Below are positions 10,529 through 12,207 of a stretch of DNA of 40,179 nucleotides, in pieces. Every line of letters begins with the position of its first letter. Position 1 is the stretch's first letter. The stretch is from Gammaproteobacteria bacterium (GTDB lineage: Bacteria > Pseudomonadota > Gammaproteobacteria > Magnimaribacterales > D2472): NCBI GenBank assembly GCA_008080945.1, contig VMDH01000003.1, positions 1 to 40,179 on the forward strand. Direction: 5' to 3'. The notes under the pieces are model-generated. The model did no database searches and was not told the origin of the DNA. It saw only the letters and a list, made by a program, of their open reading frames with translations. Position numbers and translations under genes: made by a program.

Positions 10529-12207
10529 GAGACGAATTTTATAATAGATTTAGCTGCTTGCCTTCCTTCCCAAATAGCTGTGACTACCAAGTCTGAACCT
10601 CTAACCATATCTCCTCCAGCAAAAATCTTAGGATTAGAAGTTTGAAATTCAAATTCTTCGGATTCTGTAATTTTTACAAGTCCATTATTAAGGGTTTGGA
10701 TATCTTGATTTGCAAACCAATCAGCCGGGCTTGCTCTAAATCCAAACGCCACAATCACAGCATCTGCCCTAATTATTTTTTCGCTGCCCTTTACTGGTAT
10801 TGGTATCCTTCTCCCATTTATATCAGGCTCTCCTAATTCGGTTTCCATAACTTTAATTCCACTAACGACGTCGCTTCCTTCAATTGCAATGGGTTGGGTA
10901 TTAAAGACAAATTTGACTCCTTCCTCAATCGCATTTTCTACCTCTTTTCTTGATCCCGGCATATTGTTTTTATCTCTTCTATAAAGACATGTCACCGACT
11001 TTGCTCCCTGTCTAATGGCAGTCCTATTACAGTCCATGGCAGTATCTCCTCCACCTAAGACAACTACATCCTTATCTTTTAAGTTGATAAAGGGATCATT
11101 GGTATTTATTTTTAATAGTTTCTTCGTGCTGCTAATTAAGTAATCAATTGCTTTAAAGCACCCCCTTAGATTTTCCCCCACAAAACCTCCCTCTAGCGAG
11201 GTATAAGTCCCCATCCCAAGGAAAATAGCATCATAGTTATTGACGAGCTTAGAGATCTTAATGTCTTTGCCAACTTCTGTATTGAGATGAAAATGTATAC
11301 CCATGTCTTCAAGAATTTTTCTTCTTCTCTTAACAACGCTTTTTTCAAGTTTGAATTCAGGTATTCCAAAAGTTAGCAGACCGCCAATCTCGGCTTCCCT
11401 TTCAAACACATCACAATGAATACCATTTCTAGTCAAAACATCAGCACAAGAAATACCAGCAGGACCAGAGCCGATAATGGCAACCTTTTTATCAGTCCAT
11501 TTTCTTAAAGTTAGATCAGGTTTCCAGCCTAATTCAAAAGCTTTGTCGGTAATATATTTTTCAATATTGCCAATAGATACTGCTCCAAATCCATCATTAA
11601 GAGTGCAGGCTCCTTCGCATAATCTATCTTGAGGACAAACCCTTCCACATACCTCTGGAAGACTATTGGTTTCGTGACAAAGCTCAACTGCCTCTAAGAT
11701 ATTTCCTTCATTAACTAGTTTTAGCCAATTGGGGATGTAATTATGAACCGGGCATTTCCATTCACAATAAGGATTACCACAATCTAAACATCTGTGGGCT
11801 TGGTTAGCAGCCTCTGATTGATTGTAATCACCATATATTTCAGCATAACTAATTTGTCGCTCTTGAATTGACTTCTTCGGAGGATCTATTCTTTGAACAT
11901 CTATAAATTGGAAATCATTTTTTATAGGCTCAGAGATATTTGTTAAACCTTTATCAAACTCCCTTGGTGGGCTGACTTCAGTAGCTGAGATTCTATTATC
12001 CGTAAAAAAAGATTTTTGCCATTTTAATAAAGCCTCTTTAGCTTCTTCAAAATCCGTGATGGGAGCAAACGACTTAGTTAAGTATTTTTTATTAACTCTT
12101 AGCTTTCCATAGAAGTAGGGAGATTTAGGTTGGGTGAAAAGCATTACCCCTTTTGCAATTTTAAATTGCTTATTTTTTCTGATTTGCTTATTCATGAAGT
12201 ATGACAT
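10525..12207 (-). CDS. gltD: Glutamate synthase (NADPH) small subunit with an atypical ~95-aa N-terminal extension (start may be 12195)
   Basis: From residue ~98 matches E. coli-type GltD ([30 protein letters not shown]...[42 protein letters not shown]). Residues 1-97 have no counterpart in E. coli GltD. Confidence 0.95.

Follow-up and report, generated by a model that had tools for sequence, protein, structure and literature searches.

An integrase arm-binding-type domain at the N-terminus of GltD, Rieske and IFOR-like proteins of SAR86, with adjoining repeats as candidate operators

To our knowledge, few enzymes that repress their own genes are known, PutA and BirA being examples, and their origins are largely a matter of conjecture. 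PutA is a trifunctional flavoenzyme and autogenous repressor (PMC5293562). The GltD protein described here resembles it as a flavoenzyme with a small N-terminal domain of DNA-binding type, an operator-like site in its own control region and a link to glutamate metabolism; PutA, however, relies on a ribbon-helix-helix domain and a proline/membrane switch, whereas GltD carries a domain of the integrase arm-binding (AB) type. BirA-type group II biotin protein ligases (PMC4016012) likewise join an enzyme to an N-terminal DNA-binding domain, and BirA controls its own pathway, but with a helix-turn-helix, biotin as the signal and a different enzyme. The AB domain of tyrosine recombinases such as IntTn916, lambda Int and IntSXT is a three-strand/one-helix fold (Smyshlyaev et al. 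2021, PMC8138268). The module at the present locus is also N-terminal and is homologous to it, with a predicted sheet and C-terminal helix and with repeated short sites adjoining the gene, yet it is followed by GltD, a Rieske protein or an indolepyruvate:ferredoxin-oxidoreductase (IFOR)-like enzyme instead of core-binding and catalytic domains. The KplE1 integrase IntS acts as a repressor of its own promoter, and integrase sites overlap that promoter (Panis et al. 2010, PMC2951348). Putative integrase-type sites stand beside the gene start here as well, but IntS controls the integrase itself, whereas the host here is a metabolic enzyme that we infer to be repressed. Literature searches confined to open-licence papers yielded no description of these fusions, and the SAR86 comparative paper touches on glutamate synthase in passing only.

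The window, meaning the whole stretch of 40,179 nucleotides that was analysed, encodes the two glutamate synthase subunits divergently, with the following features at the locus:

10525-12207, minus strand: gltD open reading frame, 560 codons counted from the ATG at 12207
12004..12195, minus strand: integrase arm-binding (AB)-type module, residues 5-68 of the long reading frame
11914..12003, minus strand: variable linker, residues 69-98 (33% mean pairwise identity, dN/dS 0.116)
10525..11913, minus strand: GltD core, glutamate synthase small subunit (Pfam: Fer4_20 iron-sulfur domain, then FAD/NAD(P)H oxidoreductase)
12193..12195, minus strand: probable true gltD start codon, residue 5 of the long reading frame, giving a 556-aa product
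12199..12215, minus strand: putative operator, GACATAC-TAT-GTCATAC (GACATACTATGTCATAC), between gltD and the divergent gltB
12237..16682, plus strand: gltB, glutamate synthase large subunit, divergent from gltD (from the list of open reading frames)

Elsewhere in the window, an open reading frame that by eye resembles a P-II nitrogen regulator (GlnB-like; 29297-29635, plus strand) bears on alternative control of gltBD, and adjoining frames resembling, also by eye, the CobS-like (AAA ATPase) and CobT-like (VWA domain) cobaltochelatase proteins lie near hemE (5837-8523, minus strand).

GltD homology begins at residue 99 (FQFIDV), and from there on the protein is an ordinary GltD with a conserved core and its cysteine motifs kept, an intact metabolic enzyme behind the AB-type module. 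The core-binding and catalytic domains of a tyrosine recombinase are absent according to Pfam, the remainder of the protein being GltD. Among the first 130 residues, in-frame ATG, GTG or TTG codons occur only at residues 1, 5 and 22 (12207, 12195 and 12144), so none lies near the usual GltD N-terminus and the extension is unavoidable, as an earlier note on this DNA had stated. That note described an extension of ∼95 residues; it is present, but not as a single unit. It consists of a ∼64-aa N-terminal module and a ∼30-aa linker, and the aligned module comprises a conserved 58-aa block (K-N-K-Q-y-k-i-e-K-G-l-l-L-F-T-Q-P-r-S-P-y-f-Y-G-K...W) ahead of the variable linker. Since the starts of 72 tabulated intact orthologues sit 1-6 residues ahead of the conserved K-N/H-K-Q, and since ATG 12207 falls within the operator-like repeat, the window's GltD most likely starts at ATG 12195 (residue 5), 41 bp from the gltB ATG; a start at 12207 was rejected.

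The extension is a fixed feature of the window's family. A search of 61 related genomes found it in the family's GltD and not in that of sister families. Within the window's family, all checkable GltD proteins have it (94 genomes, 10 genera), as do 108 of the 108 GltD loci examined; extension-less homologues within the group, which the earlier note had set against its own proposal, did not turn up. A scan of named genomes yielded 80 loci, mostly assigned to SAR86 where a group was given, the rest to unclassified Gammaproteobacteria, Proteobacteria or Pseudomonadota. Mean identity is 73% for the module, 33% for the linker and 81% for the enzyme, and across 55 close pairs the dN/dS is 0.025, 0.116 and 0.040, respectively. 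Purifying selection is stronger on the module than on the enzyme. The module's value of 0.025, together with the 108 loci, shows that the extension is real and not a chance or misread frame, and a frame error or spurious reading frame was rejected. The 13 window-family genomes with no module match also lack the operator-like site, and the four of them that were covered by the GltD search (G015, G028, G029 and G033) show no GltD there. In G035, the GltD gene (contig C1, 57389-58990) is fragmented, with stops and shifts of frame, and is either a pseudogene or misassembled.

The earlier note had also pointed to a palindrome in the divergent gltB-gltD promoter region. A conserved site is indeed present there, but its family form, GTCATAC-N3-GTCATAC, is a direct repeat of two 7-bp half-sites with a 10-bp period, one helical turn apart. 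The window's site looks palindromic because one base differs (GACATAC), and a palindromic operator was rejected in favour of a genus-specific form of the direct repeat. All 108 module-GltD loci carry the repeat, which ends 3-27 bp before the gltD start in the loci printed. Across 74 distinct sequence stretches, 13 of the 14 half-site positions do not vary and conservation at the remaining one is 97%, whereas most columns on either side are much more variable. A pattern search of 203 genomes of the order found one copy per genome in 92 of the 94 module-bearing family genomes, the two exceptions belonging to the window's genus with its one-base variant, and none in any other family of the order; the reversed pattern, used as a control, gave 0 matches in the same genomes. 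Where places were compared, the single copy adjoins the module on its upstream side. A k-mer over-representation test did not find the two-copy GltD site significant, so the case for this operator rests on its conservation; a consensus promoter scan of the window detected no sigma-70 promoter between gltB and gltD. The sister family has gltD immediately behind gltB (TAATG overlap), whereas gltB and gltD of the window's family run in opposite directions from the operator-like repeat. The repeat would serve as the operator of gltD. Because module and operator at GltD share their descent within a single clade, their association there may be one historical event, strongly conserved; it is the Rieske and IFOR loci that turn the link into a pattern.

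On sequence evidence, the module is an AB-type domain homologous to that of tyrosine recombinases, which bears out the integrase arm-type homology proposed in the earlier note, and the predicted fold is consistent with this. A profile built from GltD modules only, aligned with an integrase-only N-terminal profile (hhalign), gave Prob 95.7, E 8.6e-9 and a score of 44.2, against a best score of 15.8 among 100 column-shuffled control profiles. In a class-wide scan with the module profile (369 genomes), matches outside the order were mostly reading frames of 340-500 aa, and all 10 of the out-of-order matches submitted to Pfam carried Phage_integrase or integrase SAM-like domains. A phylum-wide scan (399 genomes) returned 12 matches beyond its own genome, of which 11 were integrase-type N-termini and one a transposase false positive. 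Out-of-order matches in the two scans are tyrosine recombinases save that transposase and a few weak unclassified ones. Weak matches in G153, G553 and G528 contain internal stops and were treated as noise. Searches for phage, plasmid and viral-contig relatives gave chance-level matches only, and one candidate (L243) was rejected as an unrelated phage protein. The AlphaFold model of the module, a check that the earlier note had proposed, is a beta-sheet with a C-terminal helix (strands 10-14, 17-22, 25-34 and 37-42, helix 49-66; mean pLDDT 88.6), in agreement with the three-stranded sheet and one helix of the AB domain apart from one short extra strand. The full-length GltD model was left out of the domain placement owing to its low confidence (mean pLDDT 62, linker below 50).

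No named family can be assigned to the module. Single-sequence and profile searches of Pfam, PHROGs and PDB profiles gave no module match above cut-off; below it were DUF6538 (E 0.03-0.06, Rieske modules only), the integrase phrog_10426 (E 0.02) and the HNH phrog_99 (E 0.02). Foldseek against PDB and BFVD returned no match below E 0.001, the weak ones including an AP2-DNA complex and an HNH homing endonuclease. DUF6538, an AP2-type family and the integrase PHROGs were rejected as names for the module, no match reaching the curated cut-off.

The nearest integrase relative of the module is encoded in a third family of the order, in genome G044:

L072 3918-5066, minus strand: G044 tyrosine recombinase

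Five TGTGTTA half-sites precede its start (significant in the k-mer repeat test), and beyond them lies a gene reading as tRNA-Phe; downstream are a DNA methyltransferase and a restriction-enzyme-like gene. The surroundings suggest a genomic island. A tree built from 29 short sequences places the fused modules in a single clade (87/83) with this integrase as its sister (94/88), which supports their derivation from integrases, with capture from an integrase as the presumed direction and not the reverse. The fused modules may represent separate captures, or one captured module that spread; the number of captures hinges on a fused-module clade whose support is moderate (87/83).

GltD carries the module, as the earlier note reported, but is not alone in this, since at least three unrelated hosts are found. 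In 14 sister-family genomes, the scan of 203 genomes of the order showed the module as the N-terminus of the cytochrome bc1 Rieske protein, where it precedes the Tat signal (L031-L035, L127-L135). These loci have a motif of their own, TTTGAACAC..TGTTCAAA, with four TTGAACA/TGTTCAA half-sites in all 14 carriers (significant in the k-mer repeat test), and the site pattern occurs in 14 of the 14 module carriers and in none of the 189 other genomes. Every Rieske fusion locus has two inverted half-site pairs, one on either side of a TATAAT. The distance from the rpsI stop to the Rieske Tat RR is 34-38 bp in three module-less relatives and 427-453 bp in carriers, where the interval reads, in order, operator pair, TATAAT, operator pair, module and linker. 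Helical phasing of the two operator pairs is not claimed, their centres lying ∼121-144 bp apart with no consistent 10.5-bp phase.

The third host is found in two genomes of the window's family, where the module fronts an IFOR-like enzyme:

L071 2095-5823, minus strand: IFOR-like enzyme fusion (also L136/L241), with four TATRCACA-type half-sites

The sites (TATACACA) comprise three TATRCACA and one inverted TGTGYAT half-site, and from one genome to the other their arms change in concert (TATACACAG/CTGTGTAT and TATGCACAG/CTGTGCAT). The k-mer repeat test is significant at one locus and not at the other, owing to the sequence variants of the latter. An unfused IFOR relative (L242) has neither module nor half-sites, and there the stop of the preceding gene overlaps the IFOR start without a gap. 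Host-specific short repeats near the gene thus accompany all three fusions and the G044 integrase, as with arm-type sites. Because the module-less Rieske and IFOR relatives have no such gap ahead of the gene, the stretch of operators, leader and module at both genes resembles a cassette that was inserted.

These observations are probably best explained by a captured integrase AB domain that binds the adjacent arm-type sites and autoregulates its host gene in the manner of KplE1 IntS and PutA. In an ancestor of the SAR86 family, the N-terminal AB domain of a recombinase would have been placed before gltD together with its upstream arm-type sites; most economically, the captured unit was the 5' end of an integrase, with its promoter and arm-type sites as well as the AB domain. 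Repression of the own gene is a feature of integrases with a similar layout, KplE1 IntS among them, so by analogy the fusion would bring ready-made autoregulation. Tethered to GltD, the AB domain would recognise the tandem GTCATAC half-sites in the short gltB/gltD divergent region, and free GltD in excess would most likely repress, rather than activate, both gltB and gltD. Release from the DNA would follow assembly with GltB or a redox or metabolic signal, and the iron-sulfur cluster may have a part in this switching. For the Rieske protein, the natural model would be a free subunit that stays on the DNA until it is assembled into the membrane.

Of the other readings, the one that survives best, though unlikely, is that the integrase-relic module is now a protein- or membrane-interaction or Fe-S-delivery domain, with the repeats serving another regulator. 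GltD, the Rieske protein and the IFOR-like enzyme are all Fe-S redox proteins at which a shared assembly factor or partner may dock, and the position of the Rieske module ahead of the Tat signal/anchor is an odd spot for a DNA-binding domain. The sites, however, are strictly tied to the module (92 of 94 genomes for GltD; 14 of 14 against 0 of 189 for Rieske), a shared external regulator would leave the host-specific motifs unexplained, there is a single GltD site per genome, and some Fe-S proteins of the same genomes have no module.

Control at the RNA level, in which the module would bind its own mRNA near the start codon and block translation, is less likely still. It draws on the similarity of the AB fold to the double-stranded-RNA-binding domain, a weak, chance-level match to a dsRBD protein, the abutment or overlap of sites and start codon, and the inverted repeats among the Rieske and IFOR sites, which are potential hairpins. 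The GltD operator, by contrast, is a direct repeat without a hairpin, the sites of the integrase ancestor are DNA, and one inverted pair at the Rieske loci is located ahead of the sole conserved TATAAT and so would not be transcribed, which indicates that the sites probably act as DNA, not RNA.

There is little to recommend the view that the operator belongs to an ordinary external transcription factor, linked to the module by common descent while the module binds DNA elsewhere. Within the GltD clade, the gains of module and operator are indeed inseparable in time, but a single site per genome speaks against a general regulator, and the same tie between module and site is seen again, with other motifs, at the Rieske and IFOR genes. 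A neutral origin, in which the 5' ends of integrases stayed behind in frame with downstream genes as integrative elements decayed and the operator is merely a promoter, would account for the fusions, which are to be expected where integrases at element ends adjoin host genes (in G044 the integrase sits beside an apparent tRNA gene), but is scarcely credible given a module dN/dS below that of the enzyme over ten genera, 13 of 14 invariant operator positions and three fusions kept.

The reading of the module as a captured, autoregulatory AB domain can be carried further, if tentatively and at somewhat less than even expectation: a portable integrase-derived autoregulatory cassette may have been inserted at least three times in SAR86 before the genes of iron-sulfur redox enzymes, bringing its own operators. 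If so, with each insertion an enzyme gene that was embedded in an operon or co-transcribed became self-regulating, and its control might then respond to the assembly or cluster state of the enzyme.

SAR86 are among the most abundant bacteria of the surface ocean. Visible in this group are the integrase AB donor, the likely sites, the states before and after at two loci, and three hosts, so the origin of an autoregulatory enzyme becomes testable step by step. The fusions bear on the control of central nitrogen assimilation and respiration in SAR86, and the iron-sulfur nature of all three hosts suggests that Fe-S enzyme supply and gene control may be linked.
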